A stretch of DNA of 64,000 nt from Metabacillus litoralis (GTDB lineage Bacteria; Bacillota; Bacilli; Bacillales; Bacillaceae), in NCBI RefSeq assembly GCF_003667825.1, contig NZ_CP033043.1, forward strand, positions 4,844,501 to 4,908,500, given 5' to 3'. The notes under the pieces are model-generated. The model saw only the letters and a list, made by a program, of their open reading frames with translations. It made no database searches and was not told where the DNA came from. The translations under genes were made by a program, and so were the position numbers. This document shows positions 3,397 to 51,672 of this stretch, piece after piece. Each line of letters opens with the position of its first letter. Positions within the stretch are counted from its first letter, which is position 1.

Positions 3397-5025
3397 ATGG
3401 AGCACTTAAGTCATAAGGAAAAAGTTACAATTATGATCGCCATTATTGGTGCAATGTTCTTTGCGGCAGTTAACCAAACGATAGTGGGAAATGCGTTGCC
3501 GAAGATTATTGCTGATTTAGGTGGGCTGGACTACTATAGCTGGGTATTTACCATTTATATGCTAACTTCAGCGATTACGACGATTTTAGTTGGGAAATTA
3601 TCCGATATATAGGGACGTAAGCCGTTTATTTTAACAGGAATTTTTATTTTTATGATTGGTGCCTTCTTATCAGGATTATCTAAGGATATCATTCAGTTGA
3701 TTATTTATCGAGGAATCCAAGGATTTGGTGCAGGTATGATTATGTCAACAGCCTTTACAGCTGTAGGAGACTTGTTTGCCCCCCGTGAAAGGGGTCGTTG
3801 GCAGGGAGCAATGGGTGCTGTATTTGGAATTTCAAGTGTATTCGGTCCGACTCTGGGTGGATACATTGTTGATAATCTTGAATGGAAATGGGTTTTCTGG
3901 GTGTTCCTACCATTAGGGATTGTAGCTGCTATTCTTATTTGGAAATTGTTCCCTAAAATGGAGAAGAAGGCAGGGGAATCTGTTGATTATCTAGGTTCGA
4001 TTTTTCTCACTGGGACAATTGTTCCCGCCTTATTGGCTTTCTCTTGGGCAGGAACAAAATATGAATGGAATTCCTCACAAATTATCGGTCTATTCACAGG
4101 AGCAATTGTGTCTTTCATTATCTTTGTTTTAGTGGAGAAAAAAGCAAAAAGTCCAATTTTACCTTTATATTTGTTTAAAAACAGTATTTTTACGATTTCA
4201 AATGTGATTGGATTTGCAATTGGTGTTGCGATGTTTGGAGGAGTTATGTATATCCCATACTTTGTGCAGGGGGTGTTAGGATTTACTGCAACTCATTCAA
4301 GCTTTATTACAATGACCATGACGTTAGGTTTAGTGTTTGCAAGTAGTATTGGCGGACAAATCATTTCCAAAACAGGGAAATACAAGCTTCAAGCAATTAT
4401 TGGCTTAATTGTAACAACGATAGGGATGTTCTTGTTCACAACAATGGACGCTGAAACATCACAATGGACGTTAATTGCTTATCTTGTTTTAGTTGGGATA
4501 GGCATTGGAGTAGGTATGACAGTATTTACTTTAACTGTTCAAAATGCTGTAGAACAGAAGTTTTTAGGAGTTGCAACAGCAACATCACAATTATTCCGTT
4601 CAATTGGTGGTACTGTTGGGGTTGCTTTAATGGGAACGGTTTTAAATCAACGTATGAGTGATAATATGGCTGAATCGTTAAAAGATGTTCAACAGCAAGC
4701 TGCTTCTGTTCCTCCTGAAATGCAGGAAAACATACAAGCATTGCAAAATCCACAGTTACTATTAGATCATGAAAAGCTATCACAAATTCAGCAAAGCATG
4801 CCGGCTGAAATGGTAAGTTTATTTGAGAAGTTCGTTACTATGCTTCAAGACTCATTAAGCTTTGCACTATCAGGCGTATTCATGACGGCAACAATAGTCA
4901 TGATTGCTGCTGTTGCTCTTACTTTCTTCTTAAAAGAAATTCCTTTAAGAAGCTCAAGTGCACAGAATACAGAGCAGCAGAAAGAAGTTCAAGCAAAACA
5001 ATCATTTACAAAGCAACCTGTATAA
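3397..5025 (+). pseudogene. MFS multidrug exporter, DHA2 (14-TMS) family, interrupted by an in-frame TAG
   Basis: One continuous frame of 543 codons is broken only by TAG at 3610-3612. The first 71 codons end in GKLSDI and the frame resumes with GRKPF. This is the conserved MFS motif A (G-x-L-x-D-x-x-G-R-K), in which the lost residue is normally Tyr or Phe, so a single base change (TAT or TAC to TAG) explains the break. The downstream part includes GRWQGAMGAVFGISSVFGPTLGG (motif C, antiporter) and about 12 membrane segments, similar to LmrB/Blt/EmrB-type drug:proton antiporters. The start ATG follows ATGAGGTG. Either a fresh pseudogene, a natural suppressor or read-through case, or a sequencing error; translation could also restart at an internal ATG (3652), losing the first two helices. 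Confidence 0.85.
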
Positions 5026-5048
5026 AGAGAGGATTTCCTCTCTTTTTT
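5026..5048 (+). terminator. Rho-independent terminator after the MFS gene
   Basis: AGAGAGGA / TCCTCTCT stem with a 2-nt loop region and a run of six T, overlapping the end of the coding region. Confidence 0.8.
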
Positions 5049-5112
5049 AATTACATAAAGAAAAGTATTAGTGGAAGAATGGTAGTGATTGAAAGAATGG
5101 AGGTGAATATGA

Positions 5113-9888: not shown

Positions 9889-10017
9889 AAAATATTCCTC
9901 CATCTGTTGAATTAGTAACACAGGGAGAGAGATAAAACGACAGAGGAGAGTTCAAGGCAAAAAGAGCCTCAATGATCAGCTATCGTCTCACCTTCTCAGT
10001 CCCCGAAGAAATTGAAA

Positions 10018-10192
10018 CTTCCACAAGATATAGGTAGGTCTCCTGACTTATGCTCGTCCTACTATGAGTCCTTCCCATACCTAATATGTACAGTGGATTT
10101 CTCAATTCGTCACATTTACAGTTGCGGGGACAGTTCTGGAATTGCACCAGATTCCCTTTTCAGCCTTAATTGGCACCTGAATCTTGTAAAAT
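10018..10192 (-). promoter_or_regulatory. Cobalamin (AdoCbl) riboswitch in the nrdA leader
   Basis: Read on the minus strand the leader shows the ordered class-I cobalamin riboswitch landmarks: a 5' GGTGCC, AAAGGGAATCTGGTGCAATTCCAG, ACTGTCCCCGCAACTGTAA, then CCACTG, GGGAAGG and the B12 box AGTCAGGAGACCTACC (10033-10049). The aptamer lies ~130 nt upstream of the nrdA ribosome site. A GACTGAGAAGGTGAGACGATAG segment follows; I could not resolve which hairpin forms the expression platform. Confidence 0.95.
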
Positions 10193-10341
10193 ACAATATA
10201 TAGTTTTATGTTTTGGTTGATAAATCAATATATAGTTATAATTAGATATATTTCCATGATATAGCACATATACAAAATAATCAACCAATTGTTTTCGTTT
10301 GTCGAAAATTATCTAGTTTGATAGAAACTTGTAAAGGAAAG

Positions 10342-14608: not shown

Positions 14609-14812
14609 ATGGAAAAAGTAAAATACATAAGCATGCTTTCTGCAGTCTTCACACAGATCGCAGGTATTATTTTTTTATTTATAAACATAACGATCGCAGT
14701 TGGACTATTTTTAGCTTATTTTCTTTCATTACTTGTTTTAGTCGTTGCGTTTATAAAAATAAGACTAGATGAAAAAAAGGAGGATGACAAAAATGATTAT
14801 CGTGACTACTGA
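14609..14812 (+). CDS. Small two-span membrane protein, unknown
   Basis: 67 residues from ATG 14609, which follows AGAAAGGAAG; an ATG 39 nt upstream lacks a ribosome site. Two hydrophobic segments (about 8-30 and 33-52) are followed by a charged C-terminal tail (RLDEKKEDDKNDYRDY). Its last 20 nt overlap the start of the YbjQ-type gene, whose ribosome site lies inside this frame, so the two are translationally linked. Function unknown; membrane partner of the downstream protein is only a guess from the overlap. Confidence 0.6.
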   Translation: MEKVKYISMLSAVFTQIAGIIFLFINITIAVGLFLAYFLSLLVLVVAFIKIRLDEKKEDDKNDYRDY

Positions 14813-15110
14813 AACTGTACCAGGTAAGGAAACAAAGGAATATAAGGGCTTTGTAAGGGGAAGTACTGTCCAATCTAAGCACATTGGAAAAGATTTAATG
14901 GCGGGACTAAAAACCATTGTCGGTGGAGAACTCAAGGAATACACAGAAATGATGGAAGAAGCACGACAAAAAGCAATCGGGCGTATGGTTGATGATGCAA
15001 AAGCAAAAGGCGCTAACGCGATTGTTTGTATGAGGTTGGAATCCTCAGCTGTTATGCAAAATGCTTCAGAAATTATTGCATACGGTACAGCTGTAACAGT
15101 TGAAGAGTAG
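14793..15110 (+). CDS. YbjQ family (DUF74/UPF0145) protein
   Basis: 105 residues. MIIVTTETVPGKETKEYKGF at the start and GGELKEYTEMMEEARQKAIGRM in the middle are hallmarks of the YbjQ/UPF0145 family, as is the KAKGANAIVCMRLES strand. These small proteins form ring-shaped pentamers and have been called heavy-metal-binding from their fold; the cellular role is unknown. ATG 14793 was chosen because AAAGGAGG ends 8 nt before it; two earlier in-frame ATGs overlap that site. Confidence 0.9.
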   Translation: MIIVTTETVPGKETKEYKGFVRGSTVQSKHIGKDLMAGLKTIVGGELKEYTEMMEEARQKAIGRMVDDAKAKGANAIVCMRLESSAVMQNASEIIAYGTAVTVEE

Positions 15111-15126
15111 ATCGATGATCATAACT

Positions 15127-15164
15127 AATAACCCCAGTTGCATAGTGACTGGGGTTATTTATAT
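15127..15164 (+). terminator. Rho-independent terminator of the ybjQ-like gene
   Basis: AATAACCCCAGT / ACTGGGGTTATT stem with a 9-nt loop followed by TATATTTG. Confidence 0.8.
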
Positions 15165-15219
15165 TTGTTTAGGAATATAGCGTATTTATGTCAACTTCCT
15201 GGTAGTAAGTTGTGTAGAG

Positions 15220-16857
15220 TGTTCTGATAGTGGGAGAATCGGGATAGATGAAGGTACGTGGATAGCGGTTGTGTGCCGATAGTGGGAGAATATGGACAGA
15301 GGGAGGTGTGTGGGTAGCGGTTGTGTGCCGATAGTGGAGAATCGGGACAGATGAAGGTGTGAGGGTAGCGGTTGTGTCCCGATAGTGAGAGAATCGGGAC
15401 AGATGAAGGTACGTGGATAGCGGTTGTGTCCCGATAGTGAGAGAATCGGGACAGATGGAGGTGTGAGCAAAGCGAATGTGTGCCGATAGTGGGAGAATCG
15501 GGACAGATGAAGGTACGTGGATAGCGGTTGTGTCCCGATAGTGAGAGAATCGGGACAGATGAAGGTGTGAGGGTAGCTGTTGTGTCTCGATAGTGGGAGA
15601 ATCGGGACAGATGAAGGAGTGAGCAAAGCTGTTGTGTCCCGATAGTGGGAGAATCGGGACAGATGAAGGTACGGGGATAGCGGTTGTGTCCCGATAGAGA
15701 GAGAATCGGGACAGATGAAGGAGTGAGCAAAGCTGTTGTGTCCCGATAGTGGGGGAATCGGGACAGATGAAGGAGTGAGCAAAGCTGTTGTGTCCCGATA
15801 GTGGGAGGATCGGGACAGATGAAGGAGTGAGCAAAGCTGTTGTGTCCCGATAGTGAGAGAATAGAGAAAAATGAAGGTATGAGCAAAGCGGTTATGTCTC
15901 GATAGTGGGGGAATCGGGACAGATGAAGGAGTGAGCAAAGCGAATGTGTCCCGATAGTGGGGGAATCGGGACAAATGAGTGTGTGAGCTAAGCGAATGTG
16001 TCCCGATAGTGAGAGAATCGGGAAAGATGAAGGTACGTGGATAGCGTTTGTGTCCCGATAGTGGGAGAATCGGGACAGATGAAGGAGTGAGCAAAGCGAA
16101 TGTGTCCCGATAGTGAGAGAATTGGGACAGATGAAGGTGTGAGCAAAGCTGTTGTGTCCCGATAGTGAGAGAATCGAGACAAATGAAGGAGTGAGCAAAG
16201 CTGTTGTGTCCCGATAGTGGGGGAATCGGGACAAATGAGTGTGTGAGTAAAGCGAATGTGTCCCGATAGTGAGAGAATCGAGACAAATGAAGGAGTGAGC
16301 AAAGCGAATGTGTCCCGATAGTGAGAGAATCGAGACAAATGAAGGTATGAGCAAAGCGGTTATGTCCCGATAGTGAGAGAATCGGGACAGATGAAGATGT
16401 GAGCAAAGCTGTTGTGTCCCGATAGTGAGAGAATCGAGACAAATGAAGGAGTGAGCAAAGCGTTCGTGTCCCGATAGTGGGGGAATCGGGACAAATGAAG
16501 GAGTGAGCAAAGCGGTTGTGTCCCGATAGTGAGAGAATTGGGACAGATGAAGGGGTGAGCAAAGCGGTTGTGTCCCGATAGTGAGAGAATCGAGACAAAT
16601 GAAGGAGTGAGCAAAGCGAATGTGTCCCGATAGTGGGGGAATCGGGACAAATGAGTGTGTGAGCAAAGCGGTTGTGTCCCGATAGTGAGAGAATCGAGAC
16701 AAATGAAGGTATGAGCAAAGCGAATGTGTCCCAATAGTGAGAAAATCGGGACAGAGAAAGGTGTGAGCAAAGCAAATGTGTCCCGATAGTGAGAAAATCG
16801 GGACAGATGAAGGAGTGAGCAAAGCTGTTGTGTCCCGATAGTGAGAGAATCGACACA
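15220..16857. repeat. 32-unit, 52-bp tandem array of imperfect hairpins
   Basis: The unit is roughly TGTCCCGATAGTGAGAGA, then ATCGGGACAGATGAAGGAG, then TGAGCAAAGCGGTTG. It repeats 32 times, with GATAG anchors at 15226, 15278, 15330, 15381, then every 52 bp exactly to 16837. Only one unit (the third) has lost a base. Each unit holds an inverted repeat TGTCCCGAT / ATCGGGACA around a 9-nt loop. Differences between units are almost all substitutions. Two spacer classes exist: GTACGTGGATAGC, mainly at the left, and GTGAGCAAAGC, mainly at the right. The array fills the gap between two convergent genes. All three minus-strand frames lack stops in the consensus, which creates long artificial reading frames. 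Function unknown. Confidence 0.97.
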
Positions 16858-16885
16858 ATCCTTTCGAAAAAGCCTATCTTAATCA

Positions 16886-17515
16886 CTAATAGCAGATACC
16901 TACCCGTTTATAAGCGAACTCCTCTTTAAACAGTTGATCATATGTAAAATGAGCAGTATCTTCAACAGATATTTCTTTTCCGTCTAGTGGTAAAAAATCA
17001 GCGGAGTAACGATATTGTTTTGTTAATTTTCCATCAGGAAGATAAGTTGGACAGATGATTGTCCATTTTAAAGGGCTGCTTTTTAACATGTTAAATGCTG
17101 CCAAATGCTCTTCTGCGGCTCTTGTAGTTCTACGGCGTGATTCAGTTGATTGAAAACGAAAAAGCTCCGGCTGTATACGTGATTGCAAGATTCCTGCAGT
17201 GCCAATTGTGATGATTCGTGTAATGTTTTTAGCTACCATTGCTTCAATCATATTTGGAGTGGCAAGAGAAAGAGTGTGTTGACCATCCGTGTTCAATGCG
17301 CTCACAACTGCGTCACTGTCACTTATAGCTAGCTCTACATCTTTAAAGTTAGTTGCATCACCTTTTATGATCCTTAAATTAGGGGAGGTGATTATTTTTT
17401 CAGGAGATCGGACAAGAACTGTTACAGAATAACCATCTGATAAAAGAAAATTTAATATTTCCTTTCCAACACGGCCAGTTGCTCCAAATAAGGTAATCTT
17501 CTTCAATATTTTCAC
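16886..17515 (-). CDS. NAD(P)-binding oxidoreductase, YwnB/NmrA-like atypical SDR
   Basis: 209 residues with a Rossmann nucleotide-binding loop GATGRVG (11-17) directly after the first strand. It has the order typical of NAD(P)H-binding atypical short-chain dehydrogenases: DAVVSAL at strand 4, RIITIGTAGIL at strand 5 and WTIICPTYLPDG. There is no YxxxK catalytic pair, as in the YwnB/NmrA-type subgroup, which often has redox-sensing or flavin-reductase-like roles. The start follows AGAGGTGAAAAT. Its TAG stop overlaps by one base a GTG that opens a long frame through the 52-bp array; this is probably coincidental. Confidence 0.8.
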   Translation of the reverse strand: MKILKKITLFGATGRVGKEILNFLLSDGYSVTVLVRSPEKIITSPNLRIIKGDATNFKDVELAISDSDAVVSALNTDGQHTLSLATPNMIEAMVAKNITRIITIGTAGILQSRIQPELFRFQSTESRRRTTRAAEEHLAAFNMLKSSPLKWTIICPTYLPDGKLTKQYRYSADFLPLDGKEISVEDTAHFTYDQLFKEEFAYKRVGICY

Positions 17516-34864: not shown

Positions 34865-34871
34865 TTGAATT

Positions 34872-35096
34872 GGAGGCTTTATCTTCGATTATAAGAATTT
34901 ATCCGCGATTCCTGGAGGTTTATCTGCGATTATAAGAATTTATCCGCGATTCCTGGAGGTTTATCTTCGATTATAAGAATTTATCTGCGATTCCTGGAGG
35001 TTTATCTTCGATTATAAGAATTTATCCGCGATTCCTGGAGGTTTATCTTCGATTATAAGAATTTATCAACGATTCCTGATGGTTTATCTTCGATTA
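34872..35096. repeat. 41-bp tandem array (five units plus a partial)
   Basis: The unit GGAGGTTTATCTTCGATTA, then TAAGAATTTATCCGCGATTCCT starts at 34872, 34914, 34955, 34996, 35037 and (degenerate) 35078; spacing is 42, then 41 bp four times. Each unit itself consists of two ~20-bp halves sharing TTTATCNNCGATT. It fills the gap between the convergent genes yhaR and yhzD. No coding potential or inverted repeat within the unit. Confidence 0.95.
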
Positions 35097-42726: not shown

Positions 42727-42829
42727 TTAAAATGAGATGGCCTGAAAGACATAATCACAGGCAACGATCCAACCATTATGAACAAATATGACCTTTATGA
42801 TAAAGAAAAAGATAAGGGAGGTACTTGTT

Positions 42830-42913
42830 ATGAGCTTTGGTTTTTCAAATAATTTTGCTTTGATTGTAGTACTGTTCATTCTGTTAATCATCATTGGAGC
42901 TTCTTATCTTTAA
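42830..42913 (+). CDS. YjcZ-type sporulation mini-protein 2 (27 aa)
   Basis: MSFGFSNNFALIVVLFILLI then IIGASYL, differing from copy 1 at three residues. Ribosome site AAGGGAGGTAC. The upstream ~100 bp is also partly duplicated from copy to copy, so each gene may carry its own promoter. Confidence 0.88.
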   Translation: MSFGFSNNFALIVVLFILLIIIGASYL

Positions 42914-43036
42914 TTGACACTAATGAGATGTCTTAATAGACACTAAGATAAAAAATGAGGAAATTGGGCAAACGTCCAATCAACTCAAGTCAAATGACCA
43001 TAGAATAAAGTATAAAAGATAAGGGAGGATTTCATT

Positions 43037-43120
43037 ATGAGCTTTGGTTATTCAAATAACTTTGCTTTGATTGTAGTACTGTTCATTCTGTTAATCATCA
43101 TTGGAGCTTCTTATCTTTAA
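43037..43120 (+). CDS. YjcZ-type sporulation mini-protein 3 (27 aa)
   Basis: MSFGYSNNFALIVVLFILLI then IIGASYL. Ribosome site AAGGGAGGAT. About 40 bp upstream CATAGAATA with an AC 15 bp further up fits a SigK-type promoter (AC-N15/17-CATANNNTA), which would place expression in the late mother cell. Confidence 0.88.
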   Translation: MSFGYSNNFALIVVLFILLIIIGASYL

Positions 43121-43237
43121 ATCTACAATGTCATTATAAGACATTAAGATAAAATTTGAAGGAATTGGGCAACAGTCCAATCACATGAGTACAAATGACC
43201 ATATGATATAGGGAAGAGATAAAGGAGGTAATTAATT

Positions 43238-43321
43238 ATGAGCCACGGTTTTACAGGAAACTTTGCTTTGATTGTAGTATTGTTCATCCTATTAATTATT
43301 ATTGGAGCTTCTTACCTTTAA
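43238..43321 (+). CDS. YjcZ-type sporulation mini-protein 4 (27 aa)
   Basis: MSHGFTGNFALIVVLFILLI then IIGASYL. The N-terminus has diverged (SHGFTG for SFGYSN) while the membrane helix is unchanged. Ribosome site AAAGGAGGTAAT. CATATGATA ~37 bp upstream with an AC 15 bp before it is again a SigK-like arrangement. Confidence 0.88.
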   Translation: MSHGFTGNFALIVVLFILLIIIGASYL

Positions 43322-51148: not shown

Positions 51149-51672
51149 ATGTCTTTGATAAACACCTCATTTAACATTTAGATTTAAATGCTATCTGATG
51201 TGTGAAGACCATTGTTCAATGCAATCATCCCCTTGTTACTAAATAAACGTTCTAACATTTCGGAAACTGTATTTTGACAAACACCTCATTTATAAAATGA
51301 TGCTATACAGAGCGTTTATTTCAGAAAATAGCGGCCCGTAGACACCTCATTTCGTGAGTGTTCAATCATCAATGGGTAAAAACAATATAATTGTCTTTGA
51401 CAAACACCTCATTTAACATTTATTTAAATGCTATTTGATGTGTAGTGACCATTGTTCAATACAATCATCCCCTTGTTAGTTGTTTATATAACATAACAAA
51501 AAGTGGAATTGTCTTTGACAAACACCTCATTTACAAAATGATGTTACATTCAGGCATCTAATTCAACAGAATAGCGGCCCGTAAACACCTCATTTCGCGA
51601 GTGTTTTTTCAATGGTTAAGCAATGATCCCTTGAGTTAAAAGAAATTGTCTGGGACAAACACCTCATTTAAA
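51149..51672. repeat. Interspersed repeat array in the hit/ecsA divergent region, seven exact ACACCTCATTT copies
   Basis: The 11-mer ACACCTCATTT begins at 51161, 51281, 51342, 51404, 51522, 51585 and 51659, always on the plus strand. Gaps are 120, 61, 62, 118, 63 and 74 bp. Flanking sequence shows two alternating ~60-120 bp modules. A is (TGTCTTTGACA)AACACCTCATTTAAC...GACCATTGTTCAATRCAATC then ATCCCCTTGTTA. B is GACAAACACCTCATTTAYA AAATGATG...AATAGCGGCCCGTARACACC then TCATTTCG. The order is A-B-A-B-A'. No coding frame is supported. Confidence 0.93.

Follow-up and report, generated by a model that had tools for sequence, protein, structure and literature searches.

An intergenic tandem array of Metabacillus litoralis belongs to a dispersed family of 52-bp satellites in which unit length is kept far more strictly than sequence, palindromic half-sites diverge less than most of the DNA between them, and nearly all arrays are oriented with the leading strand of replication. 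We favor, at a probability of roughly 45%, the reading that these satellites are phased arrays on double-stranded DNA whose palindromes would each be bound by a putative dimeric protein. The array lies within the window, as we term the whole 64,000-bp stretch of DNA that was analyzed (positions 4,844,501-4,908,500 of the single 5,230,624-bp contig of the genome here labeled G000); two congeners carrying such arrays are labeled G002 and G007.

The window array

TRF called the window array as a single array at 15219-16852, with a period of 52, 31.4 copies, 86% matches and 0% indels. An anchor scan gave 33 matches, one of which was spurious (15860), and the spacings between the 32 real anchors are 52 bp in 30 of 31 cases and 51 bp in the remaining one, which belongs to the third unit and reflects a base missing from the loop. 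Each unit approximates TGTCCCGAT-N9-ATCGGGACA; in unit 4 (Table 1), the half-sites read GTCYCGAT and ATCGRGAC, and the loop between them is bounded by the fixed bases A and GA. Thus, the 32 copies, the near-constant spacing and the inverted repeat in each unit, all described in an earlier note on this DNA, were recovered. A single unit is predicted to fold at -8.9 kcal/mol as DNA (z -4.95) and at -13.6 kcal/mol as RNA (z -2.79). The leading strand at this locus is the + strand, on which the array has a purine fraction of 0.68.

Table 1. Coordinates of the features described in the text (window positions, except for the last row)
Feature	Position or locus	Strand	Basis
YbjQ family gene (PF01906), co-directional, upstream of the array	14769..15110	+	Pfam
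Terminator-like hairpin and T-run, between YbjQ gene and array	15126..15169	+	-20.8 kcal/mol
52-bp satellite array, 32 palindromes	15219..16857	+	TRF, anchor scan, purine count
Example palindrome, unit 4: TGTCCCGAT-AGTGAGAGA-ATCGGGACA	15375..15401	+	Anchor scan, consensus
Long open frame spanning the array, taken as spurious	15186..16886	-	52 not divisible by 3; no Pfam match
NAD(P)H-binding gene (PF13460), convergent, downstream of the array	16886..17515	-	Pfam
IS256-family insertions in G002 arrays	L043, L044, L046, L047, L048, L049, L105, L114		Target-duplication reading

A coding repeat was ruled out, since 52 mod 3 = 1 and a Pfam search of the long open frame was negative; the frame was taken as spurious on the same two grounds. 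Identity with a known RNA was likewise rejected: an Rfam search of the window gave no match to the array, and the only match at gathering score was a cobalamin riboswitch outside of it (minus strand, 10016-10195, 122 bits). The window also contains repeats at 42788-43321 (201 bp, 2.6 copies) and 51150-51619 (240 bp, 1.9 copies).

Distribution and unit length of the family

The earlier note had proposed searching the genome and its relatives for the unit. With the window array as probe, dispersed arrays were found in G000 itself and in two out of 59 relatives; scoring covered 11 of the 27-34 first-look candidates in G000, G002 and G007. Among the matches listed, these three of 21 genus members each hold at least about 20 family loci. 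A palindrome pattern matched 285 times in G000, 251 times in G007 and 166 times in G002, with no match in the other 18 of the 21 genus genomes, while a reversed control pattern had none in all 21. A looser tandem pattern gave 408, 340 and 226 matches, in the same order of genomes, and again none in the other 18. Across 397 genomes drawn from the order, which included G000 but neither G002 nor G007, the palindrome pattern occurred in five, the four besides G000 having a single match apiece, and the control pattern occurred once, in one further genome. A phage or plasmid origin was rejected, since the array had no such matches; seven viral contigs have a single pattern match apiece.

Among the fetched family arrays, TRF reported periods of 51-53, mostly 52, with 2.2 to 46 copies (one two-unit array edge was called as period 58). 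Neighbor spacings of 40-64 bp in the three genomes equal 52 in 979 of 1036 cases, 51 in 37, 53 in 10 and other values in 10, whereas 5546 cells (10.4%) are substituted across 1030 units. Unit length is therefore far better conserved than unit sequence in this family (family A), which upholds a claim of the earlier note. The same period is kept by five arrays of these genomes that have other palindromes, with type B at four places and type C at one, and this constancy across different palindromes, together with that of family A, would be in keeping with the phased dimer array. The C-type palindrome, GTCGTTCAT..ATGAACGAC, is found at G000 3860181 (L089) and also at the edges of the A-type array 1861342 (L054).

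The arrays recur behind the same genes. For 19 of the 24 G000 arrays or pieces, the flank on the upstream side matches an array-bearing region of G002 or G007, and 12 of these 19 flanks match both, at identities of 84-97%; this comparison searched only G002 and G007 regions fetched for holding arrays, such that empty sites could not show. One flank match, 140986 in G007, lacks an array inside the distance limit. Among the other five flanks, four are unmatched (one having almost no flank) and one matches array sequence only. The window array has orthologs in both congeners, with units about 80% alike, and the YbjQ protein at this locus is identical in G000 and G002. Copy number at the locus is 31.4, 25.2 and 5.5 + 8.5 across the three genomes, the last pair flanking an insertion, and another orthologous array has 30.5 copies versus 2.3 with unchanged unit length. 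The earlier note had set against its own view the case of a common dispersed satellite free in position and length; the family is indeed dispersed, but its unit length is constant and its sites are shared with relatives.

Such rapid changes in copy number, the decay of edge units and the absence of the family from 18 of 21 genus genomes could reflect a selfish or passive satellite, which would expand by slippage or unequal exchange, would disturb the replication fork if its purine-rich repeats lay on the other strand, and would merely inherit a period of no use. The leading orientation of short-period repeats, described below, is also to be expected from this scenario. We nonetheless consider it unlikely, as the arms are several-fold less divergent than the linkers of the same arrays, which would be unexpected without selection, and the period is common to unrelated sequences in distant genomes (G053, see below; PMC8161180).

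Two observations concern the placement of arrays on the chromosome. The G000 contig starts (C1 15-261) and ends (5230201-5230624) inside 52-bp arrays, so an array is the probable site at which its circle was cut or joined. Among the listed loci of G000, G002 and G007, neither arm has any at origin distances of about 1.33-2.2 Mb.

Half-site conservation and gene context

Compared across 63 array consensus units, the core reads GTCYCGATA-N6-GAATCGRGACA; its GTCYCGAT and ATCGRGAC parts occur in nearly all of them, and bases at mid-linker are close to random. Divergence from the consensus of the same array affects 1-9% of units in the arms, apart from one variable pair at 17% and 13%. It amounts to 4-6% at the three fixed loop-edge bases, 3% at the first linker base and 7-22% at the loop centre and the remaining linker bases. 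Lower divergence in the arms than in the loop centre and linker (the first linker base excepted) would be consistent with the dimer array. The loop edges, A and GA, are asymmetric, and a symmetric dimer bound to the palindrome alone would leave the polarity of the arrays unexplained.

The earlier note had pointed to arm changes that keep pairing through G-U pairs. The variants themselves are present: among 996 family units of the three genomes, the variable pair is TG in 529, CG in 250, TA in 104 and CA in 102. As evidence for a hairpin they did not hold up, since covariation is absent at this pair, with 883 units paired versus 911 expected under independence in a count that excluded five arrays whose polarity was doubtful. 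Such independent variation is not what selection for a hairpin should produce, since its two sides ought to covary, but it is compatible with the two halves of a dimer-binding site. Contrary to the dimer array, stems tolerate C-to-T more than G-to-A (0.033 versus 0.020), compared with 0.050 and 0.053 in linkers, which hints weakly at pairing of the leading-sense strand.

The gene preceding an array is on the leading strand for 72 of 82 arrays or pieces, is opposite for nine, several of these being transposases or short frames overlapping the array, and could not be assigned for one. The 74 gaps that hold arrays comprise 44 leading co-directional, 25 convergent, and 3 and 2 of other kinds. Convergent gaps are enriched (25 of 74 with an array versus 22 of 226 without), although a barrier specific to convergent genes, one of the roles proposed in the earlier note, is at odds with the co-directional majority. 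Terminator-like hairpins are found ahead of 47 of the 70 arrays or pieces tested, a set that includes some with a transposase gene upstream.

Gene context and pairing both bear upon the possibility that the arrays function as RNA. Leading-sense read-through would then yield a string of hairpins joined by unpaired purine linkers, acting as a protein sponge or pairing with mRNA. The stable predicted hairpin of the window unit, the C-to-T tolerance of stems, the co-directional upstream genes and linkers that are purine-rich on one strand, and hence unstructured, are all compatible with this. Moreover, 52-nt repeats of B. coagulans are reported to be transcribed (PMC8625621), and small RNAs are among the options of Subirana and Messeguer (PMC8161180). 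Conversely, stem-pair covariation is absent within the family, an RNA function needs no fixed 52-nt period, terminator-like hairpins precede most of the tested arrays, the array has no Rfam match, and six G053 arrays behind lagging-strand genes are still leading-oriented (see below). A role as RNA is thus possible, if doubtful. For the phased dimer array, the same terminator-like hairpins would count in its favor, as would the orientation of the arrays in family A and in the unrelated genome G053.

Insertions at the middle of the linker

G002 arrays are interrupted by Mutator/IS256-family elements, with transposases of 388 and 420 aa (Table 1). IS256-type ends were recognized in 10 of 12 long array gaps examined, and a target duplication of 7-10 bp was readable in all ten, exact in nine and with one mismatch in L049. 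All ten duplications lie at the middle of the 27-nt linker, beginning 8-10 nt past one palindrome and ending 7-11 nt short of the next, as read by a script that required both sides together to rebuild a linker of 25-29 nt. The target sequences differ and both element orientations occur, in elements sampled through their presence in arrays only. The other two long gaps (2239 and 2241 bp), which have IstB-like genes, lack such a duplication. Since the linker middle is the dyad of the flanking inverted half-sites, the pattern may have either of two origins: bound proteins would leave the linker middle open, or the transposase would read the dyad. The former would suit the dimer array, the palindromes then being shielded and the linker accessible, while the latter would make the midpoint a preference of the transposase and not a footprint.

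Orientation relative to replication

Orientation in family A was assessed with leave-one-out position weights, and the leading-strand orientation scores better in 74 of 77 pieces, arrays split by insertions entering as several pieces. In G000, G002 and G007, we located dnaA and a dif-like site. The three negative scores belong to G000 1302568 (-20.3) and its ortholog G002 2362486 (-6.1), both near dif, and to the almost symmetric array G007 1903691 (-0.2); G007 85788 is close to neutral at +0.8. On the leading strand, the arrays found nearest the terminus have low purine fractions (0.37 for 1302568, 0.42 for 2362486 and 0.46 for 85788), and these three reversed or purine-poor arrays argue against the dimer array. 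A fork-fusion point beyond dif was rejected as an excuse for them because GC skew turns at or near dif in both genomes sampled (G000 and G007), and they consequently stand as exceptions. Family linkers are 69% purine on the leading strand, compared with a mean of 53% for 226 other intergenic gaps. Transcription and replication are poorly separable as the cause of polarity in these three genomes, due to the predominance of leading-strand genes upstream of the arrays.

Avoidance of primase trinucleotides on the lagging template was considered as an explanation and dropped. TTA and CTA seemed depleted relative to base composition (13 of 63 consensus units versus 27 in linker shuffles), but neither is depleted against the dinucleotide expectation (TTA 1.39, CTA 1.03).

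A clearer separation was obtained from G053, which represents another family of the order. It was the one genome with a 52-bp array among 20 stretches sampled from 16 genomes, and it was followed through 40 more 20-kb stretches; in G009, no 52-bp array was found within 0.4 Mb. The 30 G053 arrays of period 51-53 have sequences unlike family A. All 19 in the positive-GC-skew part are at least 52% purine on the + strand and all 11 in the negative part are at most 36%, such that the leading strand is purine-rich in 30 of 30. Other G053 intergenic DNA has a mean of 52% purine, with at least 58% in 8% of 284 gaps. A lagging-strand gene is upstream of six of the 30 arrays (105771, 290780, 504329, 2326983, 78438 and 2635287). 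Masked GC skew sets the strand clearly for L238 (0.070 beside 0.168 and 0.097) and less firmly for L234 (-0.020, next to -0.028 and 0.001, between -0.100 and -0.061), through which array 2326983 was counted. Because these six leading-oriented arrays are situated behind lagging-strand genes, it is replication and not transcription that sets array polarity in G053. At the same time, a strong inverted repeat (at most 1 in 60 shuffles as good) is present in only about 10 of the 30 consensus units, contrary to what the dimer array would lead one to expect.

Polarity is also encountered in repeats of shorter period. All ten G053 arrays of period 20-22 or 41-43, one of them inside an open frame, are purine-rich on the leading strand. 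The window has a second, intergenic tandem family at 34871-35096, with a 41-bp period and a subunit of about 20.5 bp (GAATCGNAGATAAA). In G000, this family is leading-oriented at 16 of 18 loci, and one of the two that deviate is the window copy. The rule does not hold in G029 either, where a 21-bp-type array (L209, about 4323-5087) has 0.45-0.51 purine on the apparent leading strand. Polarity is thus neither special to the 52-bp class nor exceptionless in short-period repeats. Shared as it is by both, it could have a common mutational or replication cause and may be unrelated to binding, which is a further point against the dimer array.

Orientation of this kind also raises the question of whether the arrays direct a DNA translocase or a recombination enzyme, as repeated versions of a KOPS-, SRS- or Chi-type polarity signal. 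This is highly improbable despite the leading-strand, purine-rich orientation, since the arrays nearest the terminus, where such a signal should matter most, are reversed or purine-poor. Identity with SRS, KOPS or Chi was rejected because the known motifs of such signals are rare in about 52 kb of units: the SRS/KOPS motifs GAGAAGGG and GGGNAGGG occur two and four times, and AGCGG about once per kb.

Proposed model and its generality

Among the roles put forward in the earlier note, we favor a phased protein-binding array. According to this model, a putative dimeric DNA-binding protein would occupy each palindrome. With 10.4 bp per turn, 52 bp makes 5.0 turns (4.95 with 10.5), which would place successive dimers nearly on one face, and contact between neighbors could build a filament or wrapped structure in a gap with little transcription. 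Through the asymmetry of its purine-rich loop and linker, the array might be tolerated, or used, mainly one way relative to the fork.

A broader and more speculative extension, which we regard as improbable on present evidence, is that 52-nt satellites constitute a general replication-polarised chromosome-structuring element of the Bacillales. Putative dimeric proteins would co-evolve with the palindromes, polymerise at the five-turn period and read or resist the fork one way. If so, orientation should follow replication even where transcription runs opposite. Two findings narrow the options for 52-nt satellite function, namely a polarity rule common to two unrelated sequence sets and the linker-middle insertions. 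Chi and SRS are polar features of Bacillus-type chromosomes; should the rule hold widely, these arrays would be a further one.

Relation to known repeats

Tandem repeats of 52 nt, constant in length and variable in sequence, are described for about 30% of the Bacillus species studied, beside a 20-21-nt class, and nucleoid proteins, as well as the small RNAs mentioned above, have been suggested as their function (Subirana and Messeguer, PMC8161180). By sequence features, the window array belongs to this published satellite class of Bacillus and other Firmicutes: the unit length is 52 (51-53) and constant between arrays, several families of the same length (A, B and C) coexist, the array is non-coding as far as sequence can tell, and a short signal is accompanied by its reverse, here GTCYCGAT and ATCGRGAC. 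The available text of PMC8161180 describes the class as lacking sequence conservation, mentions replication once, for the 20-21-nt class, and gives no replication orientation, gene position, half-site divergence or insertion footprint for the 52-nt class. A literature search, judged by titles and the beginnings of abstracts, found no report of the orientation of such repeats, although a first report in J Bacteriol from 2020 may hold it. Replication polarity, half-site conservation and the insertion pattern are accordingly new with respect to the literature found.

REP/BIME elements offer an obvious parallel, being short extragenic palindromes, mostly downstream of genes in unidirectional or convergent gaps, and targets of insertion elements including ISRm5 (PMC3733652, PMC1525189). 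The family palindrome is similarly extragenic, behind genes and within 20-40 bp. However, REP/BIME units are often paired in opposite orientation, whereas the family forms long direct tandem arrays with a fixed period and one polarity per replichore. Arrays driven by RAYT-type enzymes seem less likely, in that Y1-transposase genes are not specific to the array-bearing clade; they occur in 17 of 21 genomes, with or without arrays, and only one of four Y1 loci examined had a hairpin-like match, a single one. Leptospira interrogans also has dispersed intergenic satellites, but of other unit lengths (long units of 37, 46 and 69), and their orientation is not reported in the available text (PMC6749651). 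As in CRISPR, a palindromic repeat alternates with a spacer of constant length; unlike CRISPR spacers, the linkers are shared variants recurring within an array and are not unique, and there are many arrays per genome, behind ordinary genes.

Several printed families can be aligned with those described here. Of the families in PMC8161180, 77_52_5 of B. litoralis shares 98% identity with G000 array 1861342 and 74% with the window array. Family 42_52_9 is 73% identical to the G000 C array, the first 31 nt of which match at 29 positions, and B. coagulans 8_52_18 matches 42_52_9 at 28 of the same 31 (PMC8161180). A close relative of the C-type palindrome is in print for both B. litoralis and B. 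coagulans.
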